From: Desulfotignum sp.
GTDB taxonomy: Bacteria > Desulfobacterota > Desulfobacteria > Desulfobacterales > Desulfobacteraceae
DNA: 36,713 nt
Direction: 5' to 3'
Assembly: GCA_011390615.1 (NCBI GenBank)
Contig: JAABSB010000010.1
Span: 1-36,713 of the forward strand
A program made the position numbers and the translations under genes. Below the pieces are notes generated by a model. It saw nothing but the letters and a program-made list of their open reading frames with translations. It searched no databases and was not told the DNA's origin. Position 1 is the stretch's first letter. Each line of letters starts with the position of its first letter. Of the stretch, positions 5,876 through 29,436 are shown piece after piece.

Positions 5876-5876
5876 G

Positions 5877-6566: not shown

Positions 6567-6647
6567 TACTGTTTTTTTACGGGAAATGGAAGAAGCCCGT
6601 TTGTTGTAGTTATATTCATTTAACTTAAAGGTTAGAAGGAGTAAAAA

Positions 6648-6917
6648 ATGGAATTTCTTGTTGGAAGTGTATGGGCAGCAGGCCTGGCTATCGGTATTGC
6701 TGCATTCGGTTGCGGTATTGGACAGGGTTTGGGTCTGAACGGTGCCATGAGCGGTATTTCCAGAAATCCGGAAGCTGCCGGTAAAATTCAGGTGAACATG
6801 CTCATCGGTCTGGCACTCATCGAATCTCTGTGTATTTATGCACTGGTTGTATCATTGATTCTCATGTATGCCCATCCTGCCCTGGAGGCTGCTACTGCTG
6901 CGCTTGGCGCACACTAG
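6648..6917 (+). CDS. atpE: ATP synthase F0 subunit c
   Basis: Proteolipid of the rotor ring, 89 residues with two helices (about 7-33 and 50-75) and the polar loop SRNPEAAGK between them. The first helix has the glycine pattern GCGIGQGLG; the ion-binding carboxylate is E59. Q26, E59, S60 and Y64 align by position with Q32, E65, S66 and Y70 of sodium-binding c subunits such as that of Ilyobacter, while the usual T67 is leucine here. Coupling ion is therefore uncertain. The start has a strong AGAAGGAG site, and an 80-base spacer from atpB gives it its own leader. A strong terminator follows. Confidence 0.96.
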
Positions 6918-6946
6918 GCCATCCAAAGCGCAAGTAAAATAGATGA

Positions 6947-6991
6947 CAAAAAGGTGCAGGGCAGCATGCCCTGCACCTTTTTGTTTTATTT
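6947..6991 (+). terminator. Intrinsic terminator of the atp operon
   Basis: A perfect 17-bp stem (6947-6963 with 6967-6983, core GGTGCAGGGCA) has a GCA loop and runs into a T-rich tail through 6991. It lies 30 bases after the atpE stop. Because the stem has A-runs on its left side it could also act on the opposite strand. Confidence 0.92.
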
Positions 6992-7093
6992 GTGTAACCA
7001 CAACTTTGTTTTTTTTTGTCAAAAATTGTGTCATAATGTTTTAAAATTTTGGCCTGCATGTATGATCCATTTCAACACGGAAGGGGGGACGTC

Positions 7094-7528
7094 ATGAACC
7101 ATTCATCCATTGAGTTTGTGCCCATGCCGGAAGATGCCGGACAGCAGATACGGCGCTTTTTCCGCGTGCCGCTGGATACAGGCGAATCCATCAGTGTTCT
7201 CATTGCATCAGTCTCCTATCCTGTTTCAGACATAAGCCTTGGCGGCATAAGCATTCTTCTTGAAGACAACCAGGCCTTTGAAATCGGAGCGGACCTGCCC
7301 GGCTGCAAGCTGCATTTCAAAAAAACCGTGCTGTCTGATTTGACCGGACGTGTCAGGCACTGTTCACCCTCTGCCCGGGGCAGTGATCTGTGGCAGTTTG
7401 GTATCCAGTGGCTCCATGTGAAAGAATCCCAGAAAAAAGCGCTGGAGCAGATCCTGATCCAGCTGAAAAAAAGTGCACTGGCATTGTCAAAGACCGCTTT
7501 GCCGGAAGAAACAGATGAGGAAAGATGA
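7094..7528 (+). CDS. PilZ-domain protein (probable c-di-GMP receptor)
   Basis: A 144-residue single-domain PilZ protein. The two c-di-GMP contact motifs are present: RxxxR as R20-R-F-F-R24 and D/NxSxxG as D46-I-S-L-G-G51, so nucleotide binding is likely. A C-terminal helix (about 112-135) follows. I chose ATG 7094, which has a GGGGGG-type site seven bases upstream, over an in-frame start at 7049 that lacks one. The stop overlaps the next start (ATGA), and the next two genes follow without gaps, so this receptor probably feeds c-di-GMP information to the ParA-like ATPase downstream (inference). The HDOD-GAF-GGDEF protein at 21067-23061 is the only cyclase in the window. Confidence 0.88.
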   Translation: MNHSSIEFVPMPEDAGQQIRRFFRVPLDTGESISVLIASVSYPVSDISLGGISILLEDNQAFEIGADLPGCKLHFKKTVLSDLTGRVRHCSPSARGSDLWQFGIQWLHVKESQKKALEQILIQLKKSALALSKTALPEETDEER

Positions 7529-7833
7529 ATCAGAAAAAAGATATCATGGGAAAAATTCTGGCTGGGAACGATGCGGGATCAGAAGGCCAAACCCGTGAGC
7601 TGGACTGCCTGATATACCGCAGGGAGCCAGGAGATCCTGAAGAGGTCCCGTTTTATGAACCGTCAGATGATTCCTGGAAGGTATCCAAAGATAACGTATC
7701 GGTGGAGGTGTGGGAAAGCAGGGCCAAGATACGGATGCGGGTTTCTCTGGATAAGAACCGGCAGGTTTCCATGAAGCGGATAGCCAGTATTGCCGTGGAT
7801 GCGATTCTCAAAGAGCTGAAAAAGGAGGATTAG
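7525..7833 (+). CDS. Small conserved-context protein of unknown function
   Basis: A 102-residue soluble, charged protein that I do not recognise. It has no signal peptide or membrane helix. The N-terminal 45 residues look flexible and acidic (PGDPEEVPFYEPSDDSW); the second half alternates basic and hydrophobic residues (ESRAKIRMRVSLDKNRQVSMKRIASIAVDAILKEL) and ends in a probable amphipathic helix. It overlaps the PilZ gene by 4 bases and ends one base before the GTG of the ParA-like gene, with AAAGGAGG in its 3' end. Being sandwiched like this, it is probably an adaptor between the two proteins, but that is only inferred from position. Confidence 0.75.
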   Translation: MNQKKDIMGKILAGNDAGSEGQTRELDCLIYRREPGDPEEVPFYEPSDDSWKVSKDNVSVEVWESRAKIRMRVSLDKNRQVSMKRIASIAVDAILKELKKED

Positions 7834-15395: not shown

Positions 15396-18059
15396 TCAGA
15401 CACCTGCCTTTTTTTTCATGTCATGGAGAAAATTCAGGGCATCCAGCGGGGTCATATTGGAGATATCCGCCTGTTTGAGCATCTGTGACAGATCCTTTTC
15501 AACGGTGTCAAACAATTCCATCTGTCCGGGGGCATGTCCGGGTTTTCTGCGTTTTCTGGATCTCGTTTTTTCAGGGACAATTTCCGGTACCTGGCCGCTG
15601 CCCTGTTTTTCAATGGCTGCTAGCACCTGTTTGGCTGCTGTGATGATCTGGTGGGGGACCCCAGCCAGACGGGCCACCTGGATGCCATAGCTTTTGTTGG
15701 TGCCTCCCTGGACCAGCTGCCGCAGGAATACAATATTGTCGTTGAACTCTTTTACTGCAATGTGGAAATTGCGTATCCGGGGTTTGGTATCCTCCAGCCG
15801 TATCAGTTCATGGTAATGGGTGGCAAACAGGGTTTTCACCCCTTTACCGAAAAGATCGTGCAGAAAAAGGGCAACCGCCCAGGCAATGCTCATGCCGTCA
15901 TAGGTGGAGGTGCCTCTGCCGATTTCATCCAGGATGACCAGGGAATCGGGTGTGGCATTGTTCACGATGTTGGCGGTTTCTTCCATTTCCACCATAAATG
16001 TAGACTGGCCGGAACTTAAGTTGTCCAGGGCCCCCACCCGGGTAAAGATGCGGTCTACCAGGCACAAAGATGCCTTTTTTGCCGGCACAAAAGAGCCCAT
16101 CTGTGCCATGAGAACCGTGAGGGCCACCTGACGGAGCACCGTGGATTTGCCTGCCATATTGGGGCCGGTGATCAAAAGAATCTGGTTGCGGTCATTGTCC
16201 ATCTCAATGGAATTGGGCACATACCGCTCGCCGATGATCAGTTTTTCCACCACAGGATGCCGGCCGTCTGTGATGGCGATGCAGCCCTGGTCATTGATAT
16301 CGGGCCGGGTGTATCCGTTTTCCGATGCCGCCCTGGCCAGCCCCTGGAGTACATCCACCTTTGCTATGAAATCCGCCATTTTCAGAATTGCCACGGCATT
16401 GTCCACCACCTGGTTTCTTACGGTACAAAAGATTTCGTATTCCAGGGCGCTGCGCTTGTCCTGGGCGTTTAAGATAGTGGATTCCACCTGTTTCATCTCA
16501 TCGGTGATGAACCGTTCCGCATTCACCAGGGTCTGCTTGCGGATGTAATTGTCCGGCACCTGCCGGGCCTGGGTTTTGGACACCTCGATAAAATAGCCGA
16601 ACACCTTGTTGTATTTTATTTTCAGGGAAGACAATCCGGTTTTCTGTTTTTCTTCAGCCTGGGCTTTGGCAATCCAGGACTTTCCATCACGGGAAATGGA
16701 TACCAGTTCATCCAGCTCCTTGCTGTATCCGTCATTGATCAGACCCCCTTCATTGAGAACATGGGGGGCATCTTCCCTGATGGCGGTTTTGATAAGATCT
16801 GCCAGGCTGCCCAGCCGTTCCAGGGTGGGCGCCAGATCATCCACCCGGCTGCCGTTGAGCAGCGGGTGATCCAGGCGGGTGAGAATGGTGAACAATTCCG
16901 GCAGCCGGGCCAGAGAATTTTTCAATGCCAGCAGGTCCCGGGCATTTCCCTGGCCCATGGAGATCTTGCTGCCCAGCCGTTCCAGATCATATACGGATTT
17001 GAGAACAGCTGCCAGGCTCCGGTGGAAATGGGGGGCTTTTGTCAGCTGTTCCACCGCTCCTAAGCGCTGTTCAATCTTATGCCGGTCCACCAGAGGATGC
17101 CGTATCCAGTCTTTTATCAGCCGGCTGCCCATGGCGGTGACGGTCTTGTCCAGCACTGCTACCAGGGATCCTTTTTTGTCCTGGGTCTGGAGGTTGGCCA
17201 GCAGTTCCAGGTTCCGGCATGACCGGTCATCCAGCTTTAAAAAATGTGCCAGGTCATAGGGACGGATTTGAAAAATATGGGTAATGTCCTGCATCTGGGT
17301 ATCCTGGACATAGGCCATGACCGCACCGGCAGCACAGATGGCAGCAGGCATATGGCCGATGCCGAACCCGTTGAGGCTGACGGTGTCAAATTTTTTTGTC
17401 AGCCGTTCTCTGGCATCTGCTTCCTGGAAGACGGAAACGGGCAGATAGGTAACCTGGCGCCCGGTAAATGCCTGGCGCAGGGTTTTGTAAGCCGGGTCTT
17501 TTTCATAGGGTTCCGGCAGCAGAATTTCTCTGGGGTCCTGTTTTACCGCCTCGTCAATGAGGGCCCCCGGTATATAGGCCCCCTGTTTTTTTATTTCACA
17601 GGTGGTGAAGGCGCCGGTGGAAATATCCAGGCAGGCCATGGCGGCACGGTCTTTGACCACGGTCAGGGACAAAAGAAAGTTGTTGGCGGTTTTATCCAGC
17701 AAAGATTCATTGAGAATCATGCCCGGGGTGATGACCCGGACCACTTCTCTTTTCACAAGTCCTTTGGCAGCGGATGCGTCTTCCACCTGGTCACAGATGG
17801 CCACCTTGCATCCGTTTTCAATAAGTTTTGCAATATAGGTGTCTGCAGCACGGTAGGGCACCCCGCACATGGGAACCGGAGATGCATCGTTTTTGTTTCT
17901 GGATGTCAAAGCGATTTCAAGGATGGCTGCAGCTTTTTCTGCATCCTGAAGGAACATTTCATAAAAATCCCCCATCCGGTAAAACAGGATGGCATCCTTA
18001 TACTGCTCCTTGATGGCCAGATACTGTGCCATCATGGGGGTTTGTCTGGTTTCACTCAT
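15396..18059 (-). CDS. mutS: DNA mismatch repair protein MutS
   Basis: An 887-residue full-length MutS, the mismatch-recognition ATPase. The Phe-x-Glu mismatch motif is in RMGDFYEMF near residue 33. The ATPase has Walker A GPNMAGKST at 632-640, Walker B VILDEIGRGTS and the signature region DNLSSGQSTFMVEM. The C-terminal region with a short helical tail fits the dimer/tetramer segment. The start ATG has only a weak ribosome site and lies 20 bases after the LapA-domain gene. MutL is not nearby. Its operon mates are an envelope protein and a cell-wall amidase, not repair genes. Confidence 0.98.
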   Translation of the reverse strand: MSETRQTPMMAQYLAIKEQYKDAILFYRMGDFYEMFLQDAEKAAAILEIALTSRNKNDASPVPMCGVPYRAADTYIAKLIENGCKVAICDQVEDASAAKGLVKREVVRVITPGMILNESLLDKTANNFLLSLTVVKDRAAMACLDISTGAFTTCEIKKQGAYIPGALIDEAVKQDPREILLPEPYEKDPAYKTLRQAFTGRQVTYLPVSVFQEADARERLTKKFDTVSLNGFGIGHMPAAICAAGAVMAYVQDTQMQDITHIFQIRPYDLAHFLKLDDRSCRNLELLANLQTQDKKGSLVAVLDKTVTAMGSRLIKDWIRHPLVDRHKIEQRLGAVEQLTKAPHFHRSLAAVLKSVYDLERLGSKISMGQGNARDLLALKNSLARLPELFTILTRLDHPLLNGSRVDDLAPTLERLGSLADLIKTAIREDAPHVLNEGGLINDGYSKELDELVSISRDGKSWIAKAQAEEKQKTGLSSLKIKYNKVFGYFIEVSKTQARQVPDNYIRKQTLVNAERFITDEMKQVESTILNAQDKRSALEYEIFCTVRNQVVDNAVAILKMADFIAKVDVLQGLARAASENGYTRPDINDQGCIAITDGRHPVVEKLIIGERYVPNSIEMDNDRNQILLITGPNMAGKSTVLRQVALTVLMAQMGSFVPAKKASLCLVDRIFTRVGALDNLSSGQSTFMVEMEETANIVNNATPDSLVILDEIGRGTSTYDGMSIAWAVALFLHDLFGKGVKTLFATHYHELIRLEDTKPRIRNFHIAVKEFNDNIVFLRQLVQGGTNKSYGIQVARLAGVPHQIITAAKQVLAAIEKQGSGQVPEIVPEKTRSRKRRKPGHAPGQMELFDTVEKDLSQMLKQADISNMTPLDALNFLHDMKKKAGV

Positions 18060-18079
18060 GGATGGGTTATAAAAACTGT

Positions 18080-18643
18080 CTATTCCTTGGGGAGGGTCTT
18101 GTCATGGTTCCGGGTCTCTGATCCGTCTTGTGCCAAAGGGCTGGCAGCGTCTGCATCCGGTTCCTGGGAATCTTTGGATTCAGAGTCTTTATCACCGGGT
18201 GTGTCTGCATCGGATGTGCCGGGTGCTGCAGAATGTTTTTCATCAGATGCATCTGATGGGCCGGCCAGTCGGGTTTTTTTTTCAGAATTATTTTCAGACA
18301 GTCCCTTTTTGATATAGGGATCATGGATGAACACATCCAGCCTGGCCTGCAGGTCCCTGTTTCTGGTGGTCAGTTCCGTGATTTCTGCTTCTTTTTTTTT
18401 GATCTCCCGGCCCAGTCCATAAGCGGTTACCAGGCCTTTGAGGCCGGTAATCAGCAGGCCCAGGCCAAAGCAGATGCCCCAGAATGCCCAGTTGGGCAGG
18501 GGCGGGGCGGTCCAGTGCCACTGGTTGAATTTTAAATCAAGGGCCAGGGATCTGGTGGTATTGAAATAATCAATATTCTGGTAAATCAAAAGCCCGAGCA
18601 GTCCAAGTATGATCAGCATAAACAAAAATTTGATGGTCTTCAT
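18080..18643 (-). CDS. LapA-domain membrane protein with acidic tail
   Basis: A 187-residue protein with two N-terminal helices (about 5-24 and 51-73) separated by a short periplasmic segment, followed by a coiled stretch (REIKKKEAEITELTTRNRDLQARL); this is the LapA/DUF1049 pattern linked to lipopolysaccharide assembly. The last 70 residues are low-complexity and rich in Ser, Asp, Glu and Pro, probably disordered. I chose ATG 18643, preceded by TGGAGAAG, over the frame start at 18703. A good promoter lies about 50 bases upstream. It is the first gene of the lapA-mutS-amidase transcript. Confidence 0.82.
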   Translation of the reverse strand: MKTIKFLFMLIILGLLGLLIYQNIDYFNTTRSLALDLKFNQWHWTAPPLPNWAFWGICFGLGLLITGLKGLVTAYGLGREIKKKEAEITELTTRNRDLQARLDVFIHDPYIKKGLSENNSEKKTRLAGPSDASDEKHSAAPGTSDADTPGDKDSESKDSQEPDADAASPLAQDGSETRNHDKTLPKE

Positions 18644-18691
18644 GCATCTTCTCCAAGTGCTTTTCCAAGGGTAAATATTTACGTTTGGGTG

Positions 18692-18720
18692 ATCATAGAG
18701 CAATTTTTGTTTTTTTTCAA
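18692..18720 (-). promoter_or_regulatory. Strong candidate promoter for the LapA-mutS operon
   Basis: On the minus strand TTGAAA (18720-18715) and TATGAT (18697-18692) are separated by 17 bases. Two A-runs lie in the spacer. The expected start point is near 18685, giving a leader of about 40 bases before the ATG at 18643. Confidence 0.6.
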
Positions 18721-18757
18721 ATTTTCTTTTGCCATTCAGCTTCTTAGACCGTTATAT

Positions 18758-19309
18758 TTAAATAAAAACCGGGTTGATCACATTGACTTTTTCACGCAGG
18801 GGGAAAAGGGACCAGTTCAGGGCCGCAAAAGGGATATGGGATGCCACCTCAATGCAGGACACATGAAGGTGGGACAAAAGCGGTGATCCTTTGGTCCGGG
18901 TGTCAAAGGTGCGGGCAATGATCCGGCCGGCCCCAACCCGGGTACCTGGTGTTATTTCGTCACAGGGTGCCAGGTGGGAAAAGACCTCCAGCACCCTGGT
19001 GGGCCCGCCGGCTGTATACTCCGGTTCCACCACCAGGGTGTGACCCAGAAAGTCTTCACACAGATTTACCACGGTTCCCGTGGACCAGGCAGGCACTAAA
19101 GTACCCGGTGCCAGGTGGCGGATGGTTTTGTCAAAGGTTCTGAAAAAACAGATATCAATGCCTTCATGGGCGGCATGGCGGGTTTTAAAATTCCCCCACC
19201 ATTTGCTTTTGCTGTCTAACAGCATGCCCGGATAAAATACCCACTCTATGCCGTCTTTCAGATTGTTGGCTGTTGCAATGGATGAAAGGTATTGTTTGAA
19301 CCGCGTCAT
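18758..19309 (-). CDS. Leaderless LytM/M23-like metallopeptidase-fold protein
   Basis: A 183-residue protein with the ligand pattern of the LytM (M23) fold in the right order: H48-x3-D52 (HEGID), H112 (FSHLAP) and H147-L-H149 (SHLHVS). The surrounding turns (PGTLVPAWSTGTVV, ITPGTRVGAGRIIA) also resemble the beta-sheet of M23 peptidases, which are zinc enzymes cutting peptidoglycan cross-bridges. No signal peptide or membrane helix is visible, which is unusual for a wall hydrolase. The start ATG 19309 shares its A with the TGA stop of the CooT-like gene (TGATG), so the two are coupled. Function may be cytoplasmic metal or ligand binding rather than wall cleavage. The assignment comes from motif pattern only. 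Confidence 0.6.
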   Translation of the reverse strand: MTRFKQYLSSIATANNLKDGIEWVFYPGMLLDSKSKWWGNFKTRHAAHEGIDICFFRTFDKTIRHLAPGTLVPAWSTGTVVNLCEDFLGHTLVVEPEYTAGGPTRVLEVFSHLAPCDEITPGTRVGAGRIIARTFDTRTKGSPLLSHLHVSCIEVASHIPFAALNWSLFPLREKVNVINPVFI

Positions 19310-19500
19310 CACACCGCTTTGAGGATGATCTTGTGTCCCATCAGATTGATATCTTCTATGATGCCGGATACCTGCTGTTGTTCACCTAAAAGTCCTTTAA
19401 GGACAAACCGGTTTTTCCCGGCCGGGGTGATGGCTGCCACATTTTCCATGATCAGTTTTTCCGTGCCGTTTTCTTTCAGATATACATTGGATTCACACAT
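19309..19500 (-). CDS. cooT: CooT-family nickel-binding small protein
   Basis: A 63-residue protein beginning MCESNVYLKENGTEKLI, the N-terminal signature of the CooT family, in which Cys2 takes part in nickel binding by a homodimer. In Rhodospirillum rubrum CooT supplies nickel for carbon monoxide dehydrogenase. I chose ATG 19500, with GGAG eight bases upstream; the longer frame to 19587 would put the conserved Cys2 inside the protein. No CODH or hydrogenase genes are in the window. The stop overlaps the start of the LytM-like gene. Confidence 0.82.
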   Translation of the reverse strand: MCESNVYLKENGTEKLIMENVAAITPAGKNRFVLKGLLGEQQQVSGIIEDINLMGHKIILKAV

Positions 19501-19605
19501 GATAGTCTCCATATAGTTGGTAACTCGTTTGGTTTGTTGTCCCATGCCGCATTGCCCGGGCATCCTGTCCCATATTTTTACCATCACCCCTCATAATTTT
19601 ATTTC

Positions 19606-19615
19606 TCATACCTCA
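19606..19615 (-). repeat. Dispersed 10-mer TGAGGTATGA
   Basis: One of four exact copies of this 10-mer in the window; the other three are at 26289, 26303 and 26353. Here it sits between the candidate cooT promoter and the cooT start, followed by a second GGTATGAG-like unit and a shared ATTATGAGG, so the similarity with the hut copy extends past the 10-mer. Confidence 0.6.
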
Positions 19616-19629
19616 TACCGCTCGTCCAT

Positions 19630-19659
19630 TATATACCATTGCTGTTCATGCAACTGCAA
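19630..19659 (-). promoter_or_regulatory. Candidate promoter of cooT
   Basis: On the minus strand TTGCAG (19659-19654) and TATATA (19635-19630) are 18 bases apart; TATAAT overlaps two bases downstream. It would give a leader of about 120 bases that contains the TGAGGTATGA repeat. Confidence 0.4.
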
Positions 19660-19697
19660 GGGGTTTACATGCCGGTGCTGCACCAGATGCCGCCCTG

Positions 19698-21053
19698 TTA
19701 AAAGAAAAGCGGGTCAGGGTTGTGCTTTGTAATTTTTTTGCACCGGCCATACAGCAGGTCATCCATGAAAAGGGCAATGCGCTGGTTGATACTGTTTCTG
19801 CTGATATAGAACCGCACCAGGCGGTGCGCAAGGGAATTTGGTTTGGTGTAGGGGCACACGGATATGCACATGCCGCAGTCCGATCCAATGGTTTTCCAAT
19901 AGGAAAAACATTTTTCCTGGTCGATGGACCAGTGAAAAAACCCGCGGGATTTTGGCTCATCCCCTGTGGTGATGGACCCGGACGGGCAGTTGCGGGCACA
20001 TTTTTTACAGATGCGGCAGAAATGTGCCATGAAAAGGGCTTTTCCCGGACCGGAATCCGGCAAAGCCAGGGTGGTCGTCACCACAGCCAGGCGCACACAG
20101 GGACCCCGGGTTTTGTGCATAAAAATGCCCATGCGGCCCAGCTCCCCGAGTCCTGACTCCACTGCCGGGGGTACGCAGAGCACTTCGTAGTTGCCGTCAT
20201 TGTGGGCCCGGGCTTCATACCCGAACTGCCGCAGATACCCGGCCACAATATTGGAAATCTTGGCGGCTTCCACATATTTTCTGGCAGATTCCTGGATCAC
20301 CGCGGCAGTGGGGCTGTTTTTGAGCATGCGGATTTCCATGGGCACCACAATCACAATAGCCGTGGTGTGGGTCTGGTCGGTGGGTTCTCCCCAGCCTGCT
20401 GCATACCTGCCTTTTCGGCTGTAGAAATGGTGGGGGGCCAGGTTTACAAATCCGGTATCGCACCCGCCGTAGAACCGGACCAGATCGCAGATTGTGCTGG
20501 TGATCTTCCGGGAATCCACTTCCCTGGGGGGGGCGGCAGGTTCTCCGCAGGATGCGGGAATGGTTGTGTACAGGTATGCAAAGGCCGCTTCATAGCAGGG
20601 CGTGGTATAGTTATCGAAATACACCTGGCCGGGGTCGCCGAAATCCGGTTTGCTGTGGATCTGCTGGTCATGGGAATGGTTTTCCGGGCGCATGCGGTAG
20701 TAAGTGTCAGCCAGTTTGGGGTGATTTTTCAAATTGTTTCTGGCAAACATGTGGTCCCGTTCATCAAACTGGATCGCCGCTGATAGATCCATTGCCCGGG
20801 TTGTTTCCGGGAAAAACCGGAACAATGATACAATGCAGAAAAGGACAGCCCCTGTGAAAAACACCAGGTTCAGTACCGAAGAATCATGGGTTGTAACAAA
20901 TGTCCACAAAAGGGCCCATGCCAGAATAAATCCAAGACAGATGAGGCATGCCCGGAATTCTTGTTCCCAAAATGATGAGACGGTCAGAAGTAAGAAAAAA
21001 AGACCAATCCCCACAAACACAGCCTGCACCCCCCAAAAAACAACATCCGCCAC
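19698..21053 (-). CDS. Reductive-dehalogenase-like protein with N-terminal membrane helices
   Basis: A 451-residue iron-sulfur protein that resembles reductive dehalogenases (RdhA), corrinoid enzymes using organohalides as electron acceptors. Three membrane helices (about 4-27, 33-53 and 58-78) replace the usual TAT signal, so it anchors itself. The body contains CYEAAFAYLYTTIPASCGEP, the GGCDTGFVNLAPHHFYS region and SGLGELGRMG, a stretch shared with RdhA and QueG. Two 4Fe-4S motifs follow: C346-x2-C349-x2-C352-x3-C356-P and C382...C393-x2-C396-x3-C400-P. I chose GTG 21053, with AGGAGG five bases upstream, immediately before helix 1; the longer frame to 21173 overlaps the upstream gene by 107 bases. 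No rdhB anchor or maturation genes are adjacent. Genomic surveys describe a class of putative RdhA with N-terminal helices; dehalogenation by this class is not established as far as I know. Confidence 0.82.
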   Translation of the reverse strand: MADVVFWGVQAVFVGIGLFFLLLTVSSFWEQEFRACLICLGFILAWALLWTFVTTHDSSVLNLVFFTGAVLFCIVSLFRFFPETTRAMDLSAAIQFDERDHMFARNNLKNHPKLADTYYRMRPENHSHDQQIHSKPDFGDPGQVYFDNYTTPCYEAAFAYLYTTIPASCGEPAAPPREVDSRKITSTICDLVRFYGGCDTGFVNLAPHHFYSRKGRYAAGWGEPTDQTHTTAIVIVVPMEIRMLKNSPTAAVIQESARKYVEAAKISNIVAGYLRQFGYEARAHNDGNYEVLCVPPAVESGLGELGRMGIFMHKTRGPCVRLAVVTTTLALPDSGPGKALFMAHFCRICKKCARNCPSGSITTGDEPKSRGFFHWSIDQEKCFSYWKTIGSDCGMCISVCPYTKPNSLAHRLVRFYISRNSINQRIALFMDDLLYGRCKKITKHNPDPLFF

Positions 21054-21066
21054 AGCATCCTCCTGA

Positions 21067-23061
21067 TTACCCTTCCTCCACTCTGTTTCTGCCTTTTTCC
21101 TTTGCCCGGTAAAGGGCTTTATCCGCACGGGCAATGAGATCATCTCTGTTTCTGATGTTTTTTGTGTATTCACTGATACCGGCGCTGATGGTCAGGGCGG
21201 TGCCTGGAAACCGGCTGGCCAGAAGCCGGCCCAGGTGTGCAATTTCTTTGCGGATTCTTTCGGCATATACAAGGGCTTTGGACAGCTTTGTGTCGTTGAG
21301 AACCACAATGAATTCCTCACCGCCATACCGTCCCACATGATCGAAAGGCCGGGATAATCTCTTCAGGGTCGTGGCAATGAGTTTTAAGATATTGTCACCG
21401 GCCTGGTGTCCGAATTGATCATTGAACAGTTTGAAATAATCGATATCAATCATCACCAGAGAGAGGGCGGTTTCTTCTTCCACTGCTTTTCTGAATGCTT
21501 TTGCCAGCAGTTCATCTATTGCCAAACGGTTCAAAAGACCGGTGAGTCCATCCTTGCGGGAAGCGGCTTTTGCTTCTTTGTACAAGCCGGCATTTTCCAT
21601 GGCCATGCCCAACTCATTGGCCACGATGGCAATGGCGGACAGTGTATCCGGCAGGATGGGCTTTTGGGATACGATGTTGTCCATGCCCAGAATGCCGATC
21701 ACTTTGTTCTGGCTGCAGAAGGGTACGATCACCATTTCCGTGATCTTGAATGCTTCCAAAGCTTTTTTCTCTCCGGCGCTCCCGCCTGTGATCAGGACCG
21801 GTTCCTTGTTTCTTAGGCAGGAGACAAACCCGCCGGCCGACCAGTTGATGGGGATTTCAAGAGCGCGCAGATCCATGCTGGTGTCTGTTGCATCAAACCA
21901 CTCATACACCCTGAGCCGCCGCAGGGTTTTGACCATCCGCATGATATACAGCCGGTCGAACCGAAAGTCCTTGTATACCGCTTCCAGGGTGGTGGTGATT
22001 ATGGCTTTTGGGTCTAGGCTGCGATGGGGCGTGGTAAGGCTGTACCGCAGTCTGGAAATTTCTTGGTCCGGCAGGTGCTGGTCATTTGTGAAATAATACT
22101 GGGTGTTGATACTGCCTAGCTTCAGATTGGCCCGAAACATGTTTTCCCTGAATTTACCGGGGGAGGGGAAAACAAAATTGTAAAACCGGGAGACTGCCTG
22201 CATCTCTTTGTCCATGCAGGTGATCAGCCGGGAAAAATCAATGCGGCCGGGGTCGATTATTTTTTCAACTTCCGGCTGAAGCACCGGGGGACGGATAACA
22301 TCAACCGACCCCATCCCCTGGATCCAGGATAGAAAATCGGCCAGGGATACAATTGCCACAAGGCAGGCATCCTGCTGCGAAAGATTCAGGTGTTCATACT
22401 GCTGGTGATGGTATCTGACGGCAAGAGAGAGGGGATCGGGCAGGTGCCACAGGGTACTGAAATATGCCCCGATCTCATCATGGCCCATGCCCATTATGGC
22501 TTTTTCTTCGGCAATCAGGGTGCCGGTATGTCTGGCCACATTGGCGATGAATCCGTCATAATTTACCCGGCCGTAAAGGTCGAAAATAATTTTGCCCAGA
22601 TCATGCAGCAGGCCGCAGATATAAGCTTGGTCCGGATTCGGATATCTGCATTCTTCTGCAATTGTTCGGCTTAAGATTGCCACGCAAAGGCAGTGGCGCC
22701 AGAAGAAAATTCGGTCAAAATGCTGTTTTTTTTCTGGTTTGATCATTTTTTCAAATACGGTGACCCCCAGGGAAATTTTTTTAACCTCATCAAACCCAAG
22801 AAGGATGACCGCATCGGAAACTCCGGTGATCCGGTGCCTGGGGCTGTACAGGGCTGAGTTGGCAATCCCCATAACTTTGGCGGCAATACCGGGATCGGTC
22901 TCCACGATCCGGGACAGGTCGGCAGCTGAAGCGTCTTCATCACCACAGATTTCAAGGAGTTTGGCCATGGCAGGAGAGATACTGGGGATCTCTTTGACAC
23001 AAGGGGACAACACCTGTTCAATATCAGATGCCAAAACACGCCTGGGTTTGGTGTCAGCCAT
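21067..23061 (-). CDS. HDOD-GAF-GGDEF diguanylate cyclase
   Basis: A 664-residue signalling protein. Order: HDOD domain (about 18-220, ISPAMAKLLEICGDEDASAADLS region with CGLLHDLGK), linker, GAF-like domain (about 345-490) and a C-terminal GGDEF domain (about 505-662). The active-site loop is GGEEF at 580-584, a catalytically competent variant, and the inhibitory I-site RxxD is present as R571-P-F-D574, so it should make c-di-GMP with product feedback. I chose ATG 23061, with AAGGGG upstream. It ends 13 bases before the start of the RdhA-like gene, with that gene's AGGAGG in between, so the two may be co-transcribed. Confidence 0.92.
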   Translation of the reverse strand: MADTKPRRVLASDIEQVLSPCVKEIPSISPAMAKLLEICGDEDASAADLSRIVETDPGIAAKVMGIANSALYSPRHRITGVSDAVILLGFDEVKKISLGVTVFEKMIKPEKKQHFDRIFFWRHCLCVAILSRTIAEECRYPNPDQAYICGLLHDLGKIIFDLYGRVNYDGFIANVARHTGTLIAEEKAIMGMGHDEIGAYFSTLWHLPDPLSLAVRYHHQQYEHLNLSQQDACLVAIVSLADFLSWIQGMGSVDVIRPPVLQPEVEKIIDPGRIDFSRLITCMDKEMQAVSRFYNFVFPSPGKFRENMFRANLKLGSINTQYYFTNDQHLPDQEISRLRYSLTTPHRSLDPKAIITTTLEAVYKDFRFDRLYIMRMVKTLRRLRVYEWFDATDTSMDLRALEIPINWSAGGFVSCLRNKEPVLITGGSAGEKKALEAFKITEMVIVPFCSQNKVIGILGMDNIVSQKPILPDTLSAIAIVANELGMAMENAGLYKEAKAASRKDGLTGLLNRLAIDELLAKAFRKAVEEETALSLVMIDIDYFKLFNDQFGHQAGDNILKLIATTLKRLSRPFDHVGRYGGEEFIVVLNDTKLSKALVYAERIRKEIAHLGRLLASRFPGTALTISAGISEYTKNIRNRDDLIARADKALYRAKEKGRNRVEEG

Positions 23062-23148
23062 TATCACCCCTTAACCATCGTCTTGTCGGGATAAAGAGAT
23101 CTGCCAAAGAAAAACAAAATACCCTCTCTTTTCAAAAAAAGGCAAAAA

Positions 23149-23184
23149 AGGTAACTTCTGACCCCGACCCCATATTTAACAGTG
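23149..23184. repeat. G/C-rich repeat-like remnant upstream of the cyclase gene
   Basis: The stretch contains CTGACCCCGACCCC followed by ATATTT, read on the minus strand as GGGGTCGGGGTCAG. Sequences of this appearance often flank REP-type or IS200-like elements in bacterial genomes. No transposase or second copy is in the window, so its identity is uncertain. Confidence 0.3.
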
Positions 23185-23235
23185 TAAAGGAAATGATTTG
23201 AAATAGCAACTTCAGAAGCGTTTCAGGCTGAGATG

Positions 23236-24492
23236 TCAAACAGATCGGTGTTCTGTCCGTCCTGCAATGACAACCATTTTTACGGGGGTGATGCCGGTGA
23301 GATAACACAGGTCTGCCGGGGATGCCACATCCCAGATCACAAAATCCGCATCTTTACCCGGTTCCAGGCTGCCTTTGCGGTCTGCCAGGCCCAACGCCTT
23401 TGCCCCGTGGATGGTGGCCCCGGCCAGGGCCTCTTCACAGGTCAGTCCGAACAGGAGGCAGGCCATGTTCAGTACCGGGATCATGCTGTGCACCGGGCTG
23501 GATCCGGGATTGAGGTCCGTTGCCACGGCCATGGGAATGCACAGGCGCCGGAAAACGTCCAACGGCGGTACTTTTTTTTCCTTCAGATAGTAGAACGCCC
23601 CCGGCAGCAGCACCGCCACCGTGCCGTGCGCAGCCATTTTTTCTGCACCCTCTGTGGACAGGTATTCCAGGTGATCACAGGACAGTGCCCCCATTTGTGC
23701 AGCCATGGCCGTTCCGCTGGAGTCGGACAATTGCTCTGCGTGCAGCTTGACGGCAAATCCCAGGACAATGGCTGTTTCAAGCACCTGCCGGGTTTGTTCC
23801 CGGGAAAAGGCGATGGTTTCACAGAAAGCATCCACGGCCGTAGCAATGCCCTGATGCTTCACCGCAGGCAGCATCACCTGGGTAATTTCGCTGATATAGT
23901 CATCGGAACGGGAGGCAAATTCCGGGGGCAGGGCATGGGCACCTAAAAAAGTGGCGGTGATATGCTGGGGACAGGCTTTATTTAGCCGGCCGGCCACGGC
24001 CAGCATCTTAAGTTCCGTGTCCAGATCCAGGCCGTATCCGGATTTGATCTCTACGGTGGTGATACCCTGGGTGAGAAAATGGGCCATGCGACTGGATGCC
24101 AGGTCAAACAGGGTATTTTCTGAGGCAGCCCGGGTGGCTTTGACCGTGGACACAATACCGCCCCCGGCCTTTGCAATGTCAGCATAGGATGCCCCGTCTA
24201 GGCGCATCTCAAATTCCTTTGCCCGGGAACCGGCCCAGATCAGGTGGGTGTGGCAGTCCACAAACCCGGGCAGTATCCATTGGTTCCGGCAATTTGTTAC
24301 CATTTTACAACCAAGGGTTTCGGGCAGGGCATCCATTGGCCCGATCCAGGCAATTGATTTTCCGGATACCGCCAGGGCCGCATTTTCCATAATGCCGTAA
24401 TTCCCTTTGGCCATGGTGGCCACACGGCAGTGGGTGAACACCTGGTCGACATTTTCGGGGAATGGATTGCTGGTGTCAGGGAGAGTGGTCAT
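23236..24492 (-). CDS. hutI: Imidazolonepropionase HutI
   Basis: A 418-residue amidohydrolase for the third histidine-degradation step, 4-imidazolone-5-propionate to N-formimino-L-glutamate. Metal and substrate residues are in place: H81-x-H83 (VDCHTHLIWAGSR), the KSGYGLDLDTELKML segment, HAEQLSD, CDHLEY and the aspartate of ATDLNPGSSP. The start ATG 24492 has GAGGAAA upstream and lies 10 bases after the hutU stop. It is the last gene of the minus-strand hutUI transcript. Confidence 0.97.
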   Translation of the reverse strand: MTTLPDTSNPFPENVDQVFTHCRVATMAKGNYGIMENAALAVSGKSIAWIGPMDALPETLGCKMVTNCRNQWILPGFVDCHTHLIWAGSRAKEFEMRLDGASYADIAKAGGGIVSTVKATRAASENTLFDLASSRMAHFLTQGITTVEIKSGYGLDLDTELKMLAVAGRLNKACPQHITATFLGAHALPPEFASRSDDYISEITQVMLPAVKHQGIATAVDAFCETIAFSREQTRQVLETAIVLGFAVKLHAEQLSDSSGTAMAAQMGALSCDHLEYLSTEGAEKMAAHGTVAVLLPGAFYYLKEKKVPPLDVFRRLCIPMAVATDLNPGSSPVHSMIPVLNMACLLFGLTCEEALAGATIHGAKALGLADRKGSLEPGKDADFVIWDVASPADLCYLTGITPVKMVVIAGRTEHRSV

Positions 24493-24502
24493 GGATATTT
24501 CC

Positions 24503-26203
24503 TCACATGTTGATCATGGGCAGTTTTACCCCTTTGTCATTGGCCACATCAATGGCGGTCTGGTACCCGGCATCGGCATGGCGGATGATGCCGGTGCCAG
24601 GGTCATTGCGCAGCACCGTGGTCACCCGTTTTTCCGCTTCATCTGTGCCGTCGGCCACGGTCACCTGCCCCGCATGCAGGGCATAGCCGATGCCCACACC
24701 CCCGCCGTCATGGAAAGACACCCAGGTGGCACCGGAAGCCACATTGGTCATGCAGTTGAGCAATGCCCAGTCTGCCACGGCATCAGACCCGTCCTTCATG
24801 GCTTCTGTCTCCCGGAAAGGCGAGGCCACAGACCCGCAGTCCAGGTGGTCCCGTCCGATGACAATGGGTGCCTTTACCTTTCCGGTCCGTACCAGTTCGT
24901 TGAACAGTTTTCCCGCCTTTTCCCGCTCCCCGTATCCCAGCCAGCAGATCCTGGATGGCAGGCCCATATGTTCGATTTTTTCCCCTGCCATTTTCAGCCA
25001 GTTGATCATTTTGGTTTTTTCCGGGAACAGCTGCATGAGGGCTTCATCCGTCACACTGATATCTTCCGGGTCACCGGACAGGGCCGCCCACCGGAACGGG
25101 CCCTCGCCTCTGCAGAACAGCTCTCTGATATAGGCCGGTACAAAACCGGGATAGTCCATGGCATTGTCCACCCCCTTTTTCATGGCCTGGGCCCGCAGGT
25201 TGTTGCCGTAGTCAAAGGCAACGGCACCTTTGTCTTTCATGGCAAGGATGGCGCGCACATGTTCGGCCATGGAGTGCAGCGCCATCTCTTTGTAGGTGCC
25301 GGGATCGGATTTCCGCAGTTTCAGGGCATCTTCAAAGGAGATGCCCCTGGGAAAATACCCGTTGAGCTCATCATGGGCGCTGGTCTGGTCGGTGATCACA
25401 TCCGGGATAAATCCTTTATCCATCATGGCCGGCAGGATATCACCCACATTGGCGCACAACCCGATGGACAGGGGACGGCCTGTATCTGCTGCCTGCCGTG
25501 CCATGGCAATGGCCTGGTCCAGGTCGGGGGCTTCAACATCCAGATAGCGTTTTTCCAGCCGCTTGGTAATGCGGGAGGGATCGATTTCAATGCACAGGGC
25601 CACTCCATTGGCCATGGTCACGGACAGGGGCTGGGCCCCGCCCATCCCCCCAAGACCTGCAGTGACCACGATTTTGCCTGTGAGATCAGCGCCATAGTGT
25701 TTCTGGCCCAGGGAGGCAAAGGTTTCATAGGTACCCTGTAAAATGCCCTGGGTTCCGATATAGATCCATGACCCGGCAGTCATCTGACCGTACATGATCA
25801 GCCCTTTCTTGTCCAGTTCATGAAAATAGTCCCAGTTGGCCCAATGGGGTACGATATTGGCGTTGGCAATGAGCACCCGGGGAGCGTATGTGTGTGTTTT
25901 GAGCACGCCCACGGGTTTGCCCGACTGTACCAGCAGAGTTTCATCGTTTTCCAGATCCAGCAGGGTTCTGACAATGGCATCAAAGCAGTCCCAGTTTCTG
26001 GCGGCCTTGCCCAGCCCCCCGTAAACAATGAGTGCATCCGGATTCTCTCCGTTGTCCGGATCCAGGTTGTTGCACAGCATGCGCAAGGCTGCCTCCTGGT
26101 ACCAGCCTTTGCAGTGGAGCTGGCTGCCCCTGGGGGCCTTCACCGACCGGGGTTTGCCGCAGCCGATTTTCAGATCTTGTAACAGTTTTTTCCTGGCATC
26201 CAT
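24503..26203 (-). CDS. hutU: Urocanate hydratase HutU
   Basis: A 566-residue NAD-dependent urocanase, the second step, urocanate to 4-imidazolone-5-propionate. The NAD-binding loop [11 protein letters not shown] is near residue 190, and the conserved active-site cysteine is C420 in LPSRICWLG, equivalent to Cys410 of the Pseudomonas enzyme. The length agrees with the family (about 555). The start ATG 26203 has a strong GAGGAGG site. It is the first gene of hutUI and is transcribed away from hutC. Confidence 0.98.
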
Positions 26204-26221
26204 TTTTTCCTCCTCAAGGTG

Positions 26222-26250
26222 TTGACTTTTATGTGTGGATTGGCTATTAC
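26222..26250 (+). promoter_or_regulatory. Candidate hutC-hutH promoter
   Basis: TTGACT (26222-26227) and TATTAC (26245-26250) are separated by exactly 17 bases on the plus strand. The palindromic operator begins inside the -10 element. Confidence 0.55.
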
Positions 26251-26265
26251 TTGTCTATACAAGTA
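26248..26265. promoter_or_regulatory. Palindromic operator, probable HutC site
   Basis: An inverted repeat, TACTTGT-CTAT-ACAAGTA, has perfect 7-bp arms. It resembles the TTGTATATACAA-type sites bound by HutC and other GntR/UTRA repressors. It overlaps the -10 elements of both divergent promoters, so one bound dimer could silence both hut transcripts; urocanate is the usual inducer in this family. Confidence 0.7.
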
Positions 26266-26280
26266 TAGATATCATGTCAA
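26254..26280 (-). promoter_or_regulatory. Candidate hutU-hutI promoter
   Basis: On the minus strand a consensus TTGACA (26280-26275) precedes TATAGA (26259-26254) with a 15-base spacer, shorter than ideal. The -10 lies within the palindromic operator. Confidence 0.45.
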
Positions 26281-26288
26281 GCGTTTTT

Positions 26289-26362
26289 TGAGGTATGAAT
26301 TATGAGGTATGAGGATGTTAGCCAGGCAATTTTCCGTCCTAAACCTCACCTTTCATACCTCA
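26289..26362 (+). repeat. TGAGGTATGA repeat cluster and hairpin in the hutC leader
   Basis: TGAGGTATGA occurs at 26289-26298 and 26303-26312 and, inverted, at 26353-26362. The outer copies form a perfect 11-bp inverted repeat (26289-26299 with 26352-26362) around a 52-base loop. The cluster lies between the hutC promoter and the GTG start. It may be a small mobile repeat or a leader structure. Confidence 0.6.
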
Positions 26363-26379
26363 CAACTAAAGGATTTATA

Positions 26380-27108
26380 GTGGAAACTTCAGTAAGGCCC
26401 CGGGCTTTGTATGAACAGATCAAGCAGCAGATCATGCAGGAGATTGATGCCGGCCGCCTGACACCCGATGACCGGGTGCCATCGGAAACCCGTCTGGCAA
26501 AGGAGTTCAGGGCCTCCCGCATGACCGCTAACCGGGCACTCAAGGAGTTGGCCGAAGAGGGCCGCATCATCCGGATCCAGGGGGTAGGCACCTTTGTGGC
26601 CCGGCCCAAGCCGGAAGCGGCCCTGCTGGAGATCAAGAGCATTGCCAGAGAAATCGCCGACTGGGGCGGGGTCCATTCCTGTGAGGTCCTGGTGCTGGCA
26701 GAAGAAACAGTGACCCGGGATATCGGTACAAAAATGGGCCTGGCCCCGGGCACGGATCTCTTTCATTCCATTGTCCTGCACAAAGACCGGGGGGTGGGAG
26801 TACAGTATTCAGAGCGCTATATCAATCCAAAGGTGGCCCCGGATTACCTGGCACAGGATTATACACAGATCACCCCCAGTGATTACCTGCTTAAGGTTGC
26901 CCCGGTCCAGGAGGCGGAACATGTGATTGAGGCGGTGCGGTGTCCTTCCCATGTGCGTGCCCACCTACAGATCAGTGCGGATGAACCCTGCCTGCGCCTG
27001 ACCCGGCGCACCTGGTCCTTTGACCGTGTGGCCACCTTCAGCACCATGATTTCACCGGGCTTCCGGTATAAACTCAAGGGAAAATTCAACAGAGGAACAA
27101 ACCAATGA
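26380..27108 (+). CDS. hutC: Histidine utilisation repressor HutC (GntR/UTRA)
   Basis: A 242-residue GntR-family regulator with an N-terminal winged helix (about 8-75, SRMTANRALKELAEEGRIIRIQGVGTFVA) and a UTRA ligand-binding domain (about 95-235). I chose GTG 26380, preceded by AAAGGA with a 7-base spacer; it gives the normal HutC length and begins right before the YEQIKQQI helix. The frame stays open to an ATG at 26302, but that extension translates the TGAGGTATGA repeats. The gene overlaps hutH by ATGA and diverges from hutU across the operator, so it probably controls both transcripts and itself. Confidence 0.93.
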   Translation: METSVRPRALYEQIKQQIMQEIDAGRLTPDDRVPSETRLAKEFRASRMTANRALKELAEEGRIIRIQGVGTFVARPKPEAALLEIKSIAREIADWGGVHSCEVLVLAEETVTRDIGTKMGLAPGTDLFHSIVLHKDRGVGVQYSERYINPKVAPDYLAQDYTQITPSDYLLKVAPVQEAEHVIEAVRCPSHVRAHLQISADEPCLRLTRRTWSFDRVATFSTMISPGFRYKLKGKFNRGTNQ

Positions 27109-28637
27109 ACCAGACCATTGTCGTGAATGGAAATGATTTTCAACTGGAAGATTTGGTGGATATTGCCAGAAATAGCCGAAATATCGCCATTGCCGATTCC
27201 TCCAAAGCCCGAATCAACAAGGCCCGGACCCTGGTGGACACCTGGGTGAACAATGGAGAGCGCATTTACGGTGTGACCACCGGTTTCGGGGCCCTGTCCG
27301 AGGTCACCATTTCCCTGGCAGACACTCGGCGGCTCCAGAAAAAAATTTTGTTTTCCCATGCTGCCGGCATGGGGCGGGAGATGGAAGCGGATGTGGTCCG
27401 GGCCATGATGGCCCTGCGGATCAATGATTTCTGCCGGGGCAATTCCGGGCTGCGTCTTGAAACCATCCAGATGCTGGCGGACATGCTCAACAGCGGCATT
27501 GTGCCCATGGTGCCGGAAAAAGGGTCGGTGGGGGCCAGCGGGGACCTGGTGCCCATGGCCCACCTTGCCCTGGTGATGATTGGTGAAGGAGAAGCCTTTG
27601 TGGACGGCATCCGCATGTCCGGTGTCAAGGCCTTGGCATCCCGGTCCCTGGAACATTTGGAACTGGCGGCCGGAGAAGGCCTGGCCCTGATCAACGGCAC
27701 CCAGTTCATGATTGCCCTGGGGTGCCTGGCACTGCATGATGCCCTGAACCTGTGCAAGCATGCGGATATTGCCGCATCCATGAGCCTGGAAACCCTCATG
27801 GGCACCAGAACCGCCTTTGATCCCAGGATCCACCAGGCACGGCCCCACCAGGGCCAGATCATGGCGGCCCAAAACATGCTGAAAATTACGGAAAATTCAG
27901 AAATCATCTCTTCCCATGAGGACTGCTCCCGGGTCCAGGATGCCTATACCCTGCGGTGTTCTCCCCAGGTTCATGGGGCGTCCTGGGATGCCTTTGCCTA
28001 TGTGGACAAGGTGATCCGGGTGGAAATGAACGCCTCCACGGAAAACCCATTGATCTTTCCTGAATCCGAAGAATTTTTATCCGGCGGCAATTTCCACGGC
28101 CAGCCCCTGGCCCTGGCCTGTGACTTTTTGGGCATTGCCATAGCCGAGCTGGCCAATATCTCCGAGCGGCGCATCGAACGCCTGGTGAACCCCTACCTGT
28201 CTGGTTTGCCGGCATTTCTGGTGGAAGACGGCGGGCTCAATTCCGGGTATATGATCGCCCAGTATGCGGCAGCGGCCCTGGTGTCTGAAAACAAGGTGCT
28301 GGCCCATCCCGCATCCGTGGATTCCATCCCGACCTCTGCCAACAAGGAGGACCATGTTTCCATGGGGGCCATTGCCGCCAGAAAATGTCGGGATATCGTG
28401 GAAAACGCCGAAGATGTCATTGCCATTGAATTGTTGTGCGGGGCCCAGGCCATTGACCTGTTCACCAATATCAAGGCAGGGGAGGGCACCCTGGCAGCAT
28501 ATAACACCATCCGGCAGCAGGTGGATTACATGAAAGAAGACCGGCTGCTGTCCACAGACATTGCAACAATCAAACAGATGCTCAAAGAGGGGGCCATTGT
28601 CCGGGCAGTGGAAGCGGCAGTGGGCAAACTGTACTAA
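27105..28637 (+). CDS. hutH: Histidine ammonia-lyase HutH
   Basis: A 510-residue lyase that converts L-histidine to urocanate and ammonia, the first step of the pathway. The MIO prosthetic group forms from A144-S145-G146 in GSVGASGDL. Further family segments include YGVTTGFG near the N-terminus, the NGTQFM segment and the QDAYTLRCSPQVHG-like VQDAYTLRCSPQ. The start ATG 27105 overlaps the hutC stop, so the repressor and the first enzyme are made together. Confidence 0.98.
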   Translation: MNQTIVVNGNDFQLEDLVDIARNSRNIAIADSSKARINKARTLVDTWVNNGERIYGVTTGFGALSEVTISLADTRRLQKKILFSHAAGMGREMEADVVRAMMALRINDFCRGNSGLRLETIQMLADMLNSGIVPMVPEKGSVGASGDLVPMAHLALVMIGEGEAFVDGIRMSGVKALASRSLEHLELAAGEGLALINGTQFMIALGCLALHDALNLCKHADIAASMSLETLMGTRTAFDPRIHQARPHQGQIMAAQNMLKITENSEIISSHEDCSRVQDAYTLRCSPQVHGASWDAFAYVDKVIRVEMNASTENPLIFPESEEFLSGGNFHGQPLALACDFLGIAIAELANISERRIERLVNPYLSGLPAFLVEDGGLNSGYMIAQYAAAALVSENKVLAHPASVDSIPTSANKEDHVSMGAIAARKCRDIVENAEDVIAIELLCGAQAIDLFTNIKAGEGTLAAYNTIRQQVDYMKEDRLLSTDIATIKQMLKEGAIVRAVEAAVGKLY

Positions 28638-28638
28638 C

Positions 28639-28651
28639 GCGGGAAGCCCGC
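28639..28651 (+). other. Short hairpin after hutH
   Basis: GCGGG and CCCGC pair around an AAG loop two bases after the hutH stop. The nearest T-rich tract begins some 17 bases further on, so it is at best a weak terminator between the convergent hutH and UPF0280 genes. Confidence 0.3.
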
Positions 28652-28710
28652 AACCCAGGTGCCGCTCCTTATTTTCTTGTTTTTTAAACAGAAACTGTCG
28701 CGTAAGGCGC

Positions 28711-29436
28711 CTAAAGCCGCACCAGCTTCAGGCTGCCCCACAGCCCGATCTGTGCGCCCACAACGATCACCAGGCCCTGGATCCCGGGGATCTGCCTGCC
28801 TTTTTCCAGGGTGCCGGGGATGTCATCACCGGTGTTGACCCGGTTGGCCAGGCCGGTGGCTGTGGCATCCGCCAGCATGCAGGACCGGGCCATGACCATG
28901 ACTGCATCTGCCTTGCCAAAACTTGTGGAATGCCCGAATGTGCCTGATGAGGTGCAGACCCCGAAGCCGGTGTCCTGTTTAGGCACCTGTATGCCCGTGG
29001 TCATACTGAATGGAGAGCTGCCGGCAAAAATCGTGAGTACGGTGTCGGTGCGGGAGCAGATAAAAATATCGCCGCCGTTTTCCACGATGACCTCGGAAGA
29101 AAAGGACAGCAGATGCCGGCCGGTATACTCAGCCACTGCCCCTGCCACGGCTGCCATGGGTCCAACCTGTGCCGCAGCGGCCGCATGCGCCATATCCCGG
29201 ATGATCAGAGATGCCTTGTCCGGAACTTTTACAGGCACCAGGGAGCCGGCAAAGGCGGGATGCTTTTGGATATGGTGTTCTATCAATCCCCGGCACCGGC
29301 CAACCGCCTGGATGGCCTGTTTCGACAGGTCGGTAGCCGCCTGGATGTGCAGGTTGGTCTCCTGTACAGTTATTTCAAAGGAAGTCAGCCCTTTTTTCCT
29401 TTGCTGCTGCCGGTAAATGCGGCGGTCTTCAAACAT
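28711..29436 (-). CDS. UPF0280 family protein (ApbE-like fold)
   Basis: A 241-residue protein of the UPF0280 family, related in fold to the flavin transferase ApbE. Recognisable segments are AAAAAQVGPMAAVAGAVAEY, VENGGDIFI, SFGKADAVMVMA and ADATATGLANRV. No signal peptide is present. The family has no agreed function; members are common in methanogens and anaerobes. The start overlaps the last 8 bases of the dGTPase-like gene, so translation is coupled. Confidence 0.85.
   Translation of the reverse strand: MFEDRRIYRQQQRKKGLTSFEITVQETNLHIQAATDLSKQAIQAVGRCRGLIEHHIQKHPAFAGSLVPVKVPDKASLIIRDMAHAAAAAQVGPMAAVAGAVAEYTGRHLLSFSSEVIVENGGDIFICSRTDTVLTIFAGSSPFSMTTGIQVPKQDTGFGVCTSSGTFGHSTSFGKADAVMVMARSCMLADATATGLANRVNTGDDIPGTLEKGRQIPGIQGLVIVVGAQIGLWGSLKLVRL

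Follow-up and report, generated by a model that had tools for sequence, protein, structure and literature searches.

The window, by which we mean the whole stretch of 36,713 nucleotides analysed here, carries on its minus strand a gene (the RDH gene) for a 451-residue membrane-anchored protein of the reductive dehalogenase (RDase) family RdhA. The gene sits in a cluster of histidine-utilisation (hut) genes, a point absent from the initial annotation of this DNA. The relevant features are as follows.

19698..21053, minus: RDH gene, membrane-anchored RdhA-family protein, 451 aa, GTG start
20967..21050, minus: transmembrane helix 1 (residues 2-29), aligning with RdhB helix 2 (AlphaFold model and profile match)
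20958..20966, minus: EXE motif E30-Q31-E32 (E30 in 42/42 sequences, E32 in 36/42)
20889..20957, minus: transmembrane helix 2 (residues 33-55), aligning with RdhB helix 3 (model and profile match)
20823..20879, minus: transmembrane helix 3 (residues 59-77), connecting the hairpin to the body (AlphaFold model)
20274..20276, minus: Tyr260, aligned to the catalytic Tyr337 of DhPceA (Tyr246 of SmPceA), 42/42
20091..20093, minus: Arg321, aligned to Arg396 of DhPceA (Arg305 of SmPceA) and Lys488 of NpRdhA, 42/42
19983..20018, minus: 4Fe-4S motif 1, CRICKKCARNCP, residues 346-357
19851..19910, minus: 4Fe-4S motif 2 region, C382 to CGMCISVCP, residues 382-401
19746..19844, minus: C-terminal helices, residues 404-436, with K404, H410, R414, D431 and Y435 set against the menaquinone pocket of DhPceA
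21067..23067, minus: HDOD-GAF-GGDEF protein, 13 bases upstream of the RDH gene
23236..24492, minus: hutI, imidazolonepropionase (TIGR01224, 1.1e-136)
24503..26203, minus: hutU, urocanate hydratase (TIGR01228, 4.6e-279)
26302..27108, plus: hutC, histidine-utilisation repressor, divergent (TIGR02018, 1.6e-81)
27105..28637, plus: hutH, histidine ammonia-lyase (TIGR01225, 5.7e-207)

The GTG start codon has AGGAGG 5 bases ahead of it, and homologues use the same start residue. The reading frame stays open as far as 21173. A longer start would give 481 or 491 residues and with them a positively charged N-tail that speaks for the opposite topology; it was rejected because homologues begin at the start residue of the 451-residue form and AGGAGG precedes that start. 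The AlphaFold model, built from 42 aligned sequences (mean pLDDT 92.2, pTM 0.90), has helices at residues 2-29, 33-55 and 59-77, followed by the body, and both 4Fe-4S motifs, CXXCXXCXXXCP (residues 346-357) and CXXCXXXCP (residues 393-401), are present. There is no RR pair anywhere in the 451 residues and hence no TAT motif, and neither rdhB nor a maturation gene was found among the neighbours whose families were searched. On these points the initial annotation, which had described three helices joined to an RdhA-like body with two 4Fe-4S motifs, an anchor of its own, and the lack of a TAT motif and of RdhB or maturation genes beside it, is borne out.

The protein thus lacks the TAT signal and neighbouring rdhB of respiratory RdhA, and has the features of the hybrid putative RDases: three N-terminal helices, EXE, FeS1 and FeS2, with neither TAT nor rdhB. 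A gene of hybrid type was reported by Jochum 2018 (PMC6129605), and Atashgahi 2019 (PMC6797604) described the hybrid putative RDases as a class forming a clade separate from the known RDases; the class with N-terminal helices that the initial annotation mentioned as noted in genomes does therefore exist in the literature. Its published members share with the present protein the three helices, EXE after helix 1, both FeS motifs, the absence of TAT and RdhB, a similar length and, among the hosts, Deltaproteobacteria. What is added here to this known class is a charge bias that suggests an inverted anchor, a set of invariant residues, and a neighbourhood of hut and other catabolic genes.

Membership in the RdhA family was assessed by profile scores, fold and phylogeny. 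The RdhA model TIGR02486 gave 133.3 bits (E = 1.7e-38), below its curated cut-off of 160.35, which several hybrid relatives do exceed, and the QueG model TIGR00276 gave 22 bits against a cut-off of 200. The search against RdhA profiles proposed in the initial annotation therefore placed the protein far nearer to RdhA than to QueG, although under the curated RdhA threshold. PF13486 had no match in the protein, and in one search the control genomes were without a match too. The matches to PDB sequences were NpRdhA (best), SmPceA and DhPceA. In a Foldseek search with the model, chains of SmPceA, NpRdhA and DhPceA occupied ranks 1-36 (E 7.3e-18 to 5.9e-16), QueG followed the RDase chains with E-values from 8.7e-6 upwards, and MMACHC, which handles B12, was matched weakly at E 0.02-0.04.

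The tree was calculated with FastTree on 99 catalytic cores; for its rows 74 sequences were found, of which 9 were already aligned, 12 were excluded (11 as duplicates or fragments, 1 as masked) and 53 were added. All 53 hybrids fell within one 55-tip clade (support 0.82), whose two remaining tips (L050 and L052) are both without helices. Five TAT-type RdhA, two PceA, NpRdhA and the other 35 helix-less forms lay outside it, and E. coli QueG was a very distant outgroup. The separate hybrid clade agrees with that of Atashgahi 2019. Membership in QueG, the placement that the initial annotation had named as fatal to its reading, is ruled out by the profile scores, the fold ranking and the tree, and the 451-residue protein belongs to the RdhA family. 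No QueG above its cut-off was found in the host's own genome (assembly 83% complete). One of the two helix-less tips in the hybrid clade, L050 (G114:C1 around 160829), is a 679-residue frame with an RdhA-like C-terminal part and an N-terminal part that resembles, by eye, an electron-transfer flavoprotein alpha subunit; since it is nested without helices among the hybrids, it has perhaps changed its electron donor.

Residue conservation was determined in a set of 42 sequences consisting of the window protein, 32 loci from a scan of genome contigs (38 loci less L021, L024, L032, L033, L036 and L037, which are truncated or incomplete) and 9 hybrids from a phylum sample of 297 genomes. No substitution occurs in any of the 42 at E30, Y260, R321, any Cys of the FeS motifs, H410, D431 or Y435; position 404 has Lys in 31 of them and position 414 has Arg in 36. 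In the alignment to solved chains, Y260 and R321 correspond to Y337 and R396 of DhPceA, and K404, H410, R414 and D431 to its menaquinone-pocket residues K489, H495, R499 and D515, while Y435 falls, by manual count, one residue off the pocket Y520; the roles of the DhPceA residues are those given by Cimmino 2023 (PMC10624902). The pocket His is also found in TM-less relatives, so that it is weaker as evidence for quinone use and was not taken as proof of it.

In the alignment, helix 1, EXE and helix 2 of the hybrids pair with helix 2, EXE and helix 3 of RdhB. When a profile of the hybrid N-terminus was run against 282 membrane ORFs from the loci, the best non-hybrid matches were seven RdhB-type hairpins (those of L133, L134, L147, L152, L207 and L177, the last being the same as L208, and one in L135 at the beginning of a 518-residue frame), with E-values of 1.9e-6 to 1.6e-4, and the next match was at 7e-4; two of the nine RdhB (L205 and L206) were matched weakly. 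These RdhB-type proteins were taken beside RdhA genes from the same order, and among the RdhA whose start is known (it is missing in L205-L207) a TAT motif is present in L133, L134, L135, L152 and L208 and absent in L147.

Orientation was estimated from the charge bias, counted as Lys plus Arg in hand-cut segments. The EXE loop of PceA2B2 lies on the P-side (Cimmino 2023, PMC10624902), and the bias placed EXE outside, as expected, in 7 of 8 RdhB with L147 as the exception, a count of related rows in which L133/L134 and L205/L206 are near-duplicates and which are not independent. Among the hybrids the sign was opposite: the EXE loop and the segment after helix 3 carried more charge than the N-tail and loop 2 in all 42, as for a body inside, where the 42 are not independent votes because they are mutually related and about half come from one family. 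The Arg of the EXE loop belongs to the motif and is found in RdhB also; when this loop was omitted from the hybrid count, 35 of the 42 remained inward, 4 were outward and 3 tied. The hybrid anchor thus looks like an RdhB hairpin in inverted orientation, and, judged from the charge bias and the lack of TAT, the body probably faces the cytoplasm; the inward facing is preferred since a cofactor-bearing body is found with no TAT motif. This is the topology, unlike that of the exported enzymes, which had been suggested from the helices in the initial annotation.

We now turn to the gene order. In all 20 related loci with upstream sequence (L003-L021 and L023; 57-72% identical; one MAG is the source of both L006 and L021), the first recognised gene upstream of the RDH gene is hutI; L033 and L036 start inside the gene and hence lie outside this count. 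The gap between the two genes is 33 nt or less in 14 of the 20. The pair is kept in L005, L007, L016 and L120, where the cluster has no canonical hutU, and in L122, where the usual downstream genes were not found within 6 kb; this persistence suggests co-transcription. The genomes of L005, L007, L016 and L120 carry a HutU-type gene elsewhere, that of L120 (G553) with one internal stop codon. We rejected the idea that the RDH protein stands in for a missing urocanase, because a HutU-type gene was present in 8 of 8 genomes searched.

The diguanylate cyclase gene does end 13 bases before the RDH start, as was stated in the initial annotation, but the shared expression proposed there from this spacing has become less attractive, since hutI precedes the RDH gene in 20 of 20 loci whereas the cyclase was seen only in one genus. 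The HDOD-GAF-GGDEF gene was seen beside the RDH gene in four genomes (the window, G304, G301 and G303), before or after it, and of the 20 hutI-linked loci L003 alone shows a cyclase, after the RDH gene, some contigs ending nearby. A functional coupling to the cyclase was not adopted for this reason.

The window, L005, L120 and L124 share a largely collinear gene order from the dGTPase/DUF genes to MutS, so that the position in the hut cluster may be inherited synteny. Within the genus, the RDH gene is intact in 3 of 13 genomes (assemblies 77-98% complete) and hutI is above cut-off in 12 of 13, while G301 (L131) and G303 (L132) retain only a 5′ remnant beside the diguanylate cyclase, indicating loss within the genus; histidine use thus does not need the RDH gene. 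G300, G302 and G305 have a CooT-like gene as the first recognised one after hutI. A separate case is L120 (G553:C1:3896972-3898144), in a single-contig genome, where the hut-linked match is without residues 299-320 and the N-terminal 31, and is either decaying or a variant.

Outside the hut-linked group, none of 16 hybrid loci from other groups, several of which have short flanks, matched the hut genes of the window, and none of 18 further hybrid loci of Desulfobacterota (L102-L119) did. A formiminotransferase lies on the opposite strand near L029 (by Pfam) and near L031 (by eye). In 12 of the 18 Desulfobacterota loci, the adjacent gene on the same strand is one of transport or catabolism: a TRAP transporter in L103, L104 and L106, an AMP-binding ligase in L112, L113, L114, L115 and L118 (all of family f120), an acyl-CoA synthetase-like gene in L105 and L107, an enoyl-CoA hydratase-like gene in L109, and a beta-eliminating lyase (PF01212, amino-acid lyases) in L102. 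These neighbours were typed by Pfam in L102, L104, L105, L106, L107, L109, L113 and L114 and by similarity to window proteins in L103, L112, L115 and L118. An FCD-GntR regulator is found beside L104, L106 and L114. The hybrids therefore show a catabolic pattern with partners that differ by clade. In L102 the lyase (173-1615) is accompanied by a pyrogallol hydroxytransferase-like molybdoprotein (5164-7725), encoded on the opposite strand some 2 kb upstream, and we read these neighbours as a second amino-acid or aromatic link.

Taking the family, the fold, the invariant catalytic residues, the relation of the hairpin to RdhB and the gene order together, we consider that the protein is best explained as a cytoplasm-facing, quinol-fed hybrid reductase which is an accessory of histidine utilisation, and put the probability of this reading as a whole at roughly 55%. 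A single chain would combine an RdhB-like hairpin with an RdhA-family corrinoid/4Fe-4S reductase whose catalytic body is cytoplasmic; helix 1, EXE and helix 2 would form the inverted hairpin and helix 3 would link it to the body. Menaquinol, which is probably the donor, would enter from the cytoplasmic side a pocket to which the hairpin and both C-terminal helices contribute, and electrons would pass through the two 4Fe-4S clusters to cob(I)alamin, the corrinoid being predicted, and on to a small cytoplasmic organic substrate. The initial annotation had proposed a cytoplasmic donor; a soluble one is possible, but the RdhB-like hairpin and the pocket residues favour menaquinol oxidised at the cytoplasmic side. 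In the hut-linked loci, the enzyme would strip a halogen, or some other group open to reduction, from a compound of the histidine or urocanate type for the Hut enzymes, and the gene order suggests that the substrate is perhaps a halogenated histidine or urocanate. Halogenated histidines have reportedly been described by Birkedal. Since quinol oxidation and substrate reduction would take place on the same side, the step itself would conserve no energy. Extended to the class, so that hybrids in general are inside-out menaquinol:organohalide oxidoreductases turned from respiration to catabolism, with the hut subgroup dehalogenating histidine or urocanate through menaquinol, the proposal becomes speculative and we rate it as rather unlikely in its entirety.

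Several other explanations share part of this evidence. The strongest of them, which we regard as a substantial though lesser possibility, is a general detoxifying or electron-sink RDase that stands beside hutI through inherited gene order and is unrelated to histidine: the partly collinear block, the loss and remnants within the genus and the groups without a hut link all fit it, but the short hutI gap in most loci (at most 33 nt in 14 of them) and the survival of the hutI-RDH pair where hutU is absent from the cluster or the downstream genes have changed do not. Somewhat less probable, though worth serious attention, is a cytoplasm-facing reductase of the same family acting on a non-halogenated substrate, for instance a compound that arises in histidine degradation as an intermediate or oxidation product. 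QueG exemplifies RDase relatives able to reduce non-halogenated substrates. That precedent, the hut linkage, the single strong RdhA match in the host genome and the description of the class as one without known activity (Atashgahi 2019, PMC6797604) speak for such a reaction, against which stand the Tyr and Arg equivalents, which are those of RDases, the tree position among RDases far from QueG, and the absence of a candidate reaction.

We consider quite improbable a respiratory-type hybrid RDase whose body is periplasmic like that of PceA2B2, with quinol oxidised outside and energy conserved. The hairpin is similar to that of RdhB, whose EXE in PceA2B2 is on the P-side, Cimmino 2023 (PMC10624902) anticipates a structural relationship between hybrids and PceA2B2, and the TMHMM predictions in Atashgahi 2019 (PMC6797604) gave mixed orientations, many of them exoplasmic. 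Here, however, the charge bias is uniformly inward (42 of 42) and opposite to that of 7 of 8 RdhB, a body with two 4Fe-4S motifs has no TAT motif, and catabolic or transport genes are the neighbours in 12 of 18 loci.

The menaquinol:organohalide oxidoreductase PceA2B2 (8q4h) shares with the 451-residue protein the RdhA body, the catalytic Tyr and Arg, the FeS motifs, the EXE hairpin and the pocket K/H/R/D; it differs in consisting of two chains, with TAT export and with EXE and body in the periplasm, whereas the present protein is one chain without TAT, with the opposite charge bias and with the pocket Tyr shifted by one residue. The cytoplasmic catabolic RDase NpRdhA resembles it in the FeS motifs, the catalytic Tyr and the cytoplasmic body, predicted in our protein, and is the best PDB sequence match; unlike it, NpRdhA depends on NADPH, comprises about 700 residues, carries a Lys where our protein has Arg321, and has no pocket His and no such anchor. 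QueG, the epoxyqueuosine reductase, shares a related fold, the 4Fe-4S module and a weak profile match, but 22 bits compare with 133 for the RDH model and it is a distant outgroup in the tree. Where neighbours of the published hybrids are given in the sections cited above, they are described as being without rdhB, in contrast to the hut-linked subgroup and the other catabolic neighbours seen here. Transcripts of an RDase gene without rdhB have been described, and possible cytoplasmic dehalogenation suggested (PMC12090745). Among the matches listed for the reductive dehalogenase literature with histidine, imidazolonepropionase, urocanate or catabolic terms together with TRAP transporters, and for hybrid or transmembrane forms from 2019 on, no title or abstract concerned a hut link, and the paper that combines reductive dehalogenase, histidine and imidazolonepropionase concerns, in the part consulted, fluoroacetate. 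A paper that describes singly brominated tyrosine in nereid jaws cites Birkedal 2006.

The host is related to marine sulfate reducers, and the hut neighbourhood offers a concrete lead to the function of an uncharacterised class. Atashgahi 2019 (PMC6797604) asked whether hybrids are RDases, how they could be exported to the exoplasmic side without TAT, and what their substrates are. These questions become directly testable through the inward charge bias, for which RdhB serves as the opposite control, and through the recurrent position of the gene behind hutI, in a cluster that also encodes the repressor HutC. If the proposal is true, a respiratory module has been inverted for catabolism, and halogen cycling is tied to amino-acid degradation.

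Some minor observations complete the description. At the gathering threshold, no known RNA family was found in 18000-29000. A palindrome, CTTGTCTATACAAG, at 26250-26263 between the divergent hutC and hutU is a plausible candidate for a HutC operator. On the other side of the RDH gene, 19309-19587 encodes a CooT-like protein (PF10133) and overlaps a gene (18758-19312) with a sub-threshold peptidase-M23 match; the CooT-like gene comes after this position in several genomes, whether or not they carry the RDH gene. Desulfobacterota also contain many TM-less, mostly TAT-less RdhA-like genes (L054-L067 and L136-L156), which by eye have a DctQ-like neighbour in L062 and an ABC-permease-like neighbour in L056. 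Close to the end of the window, 35425-36576 encodes a phage-type integrase.
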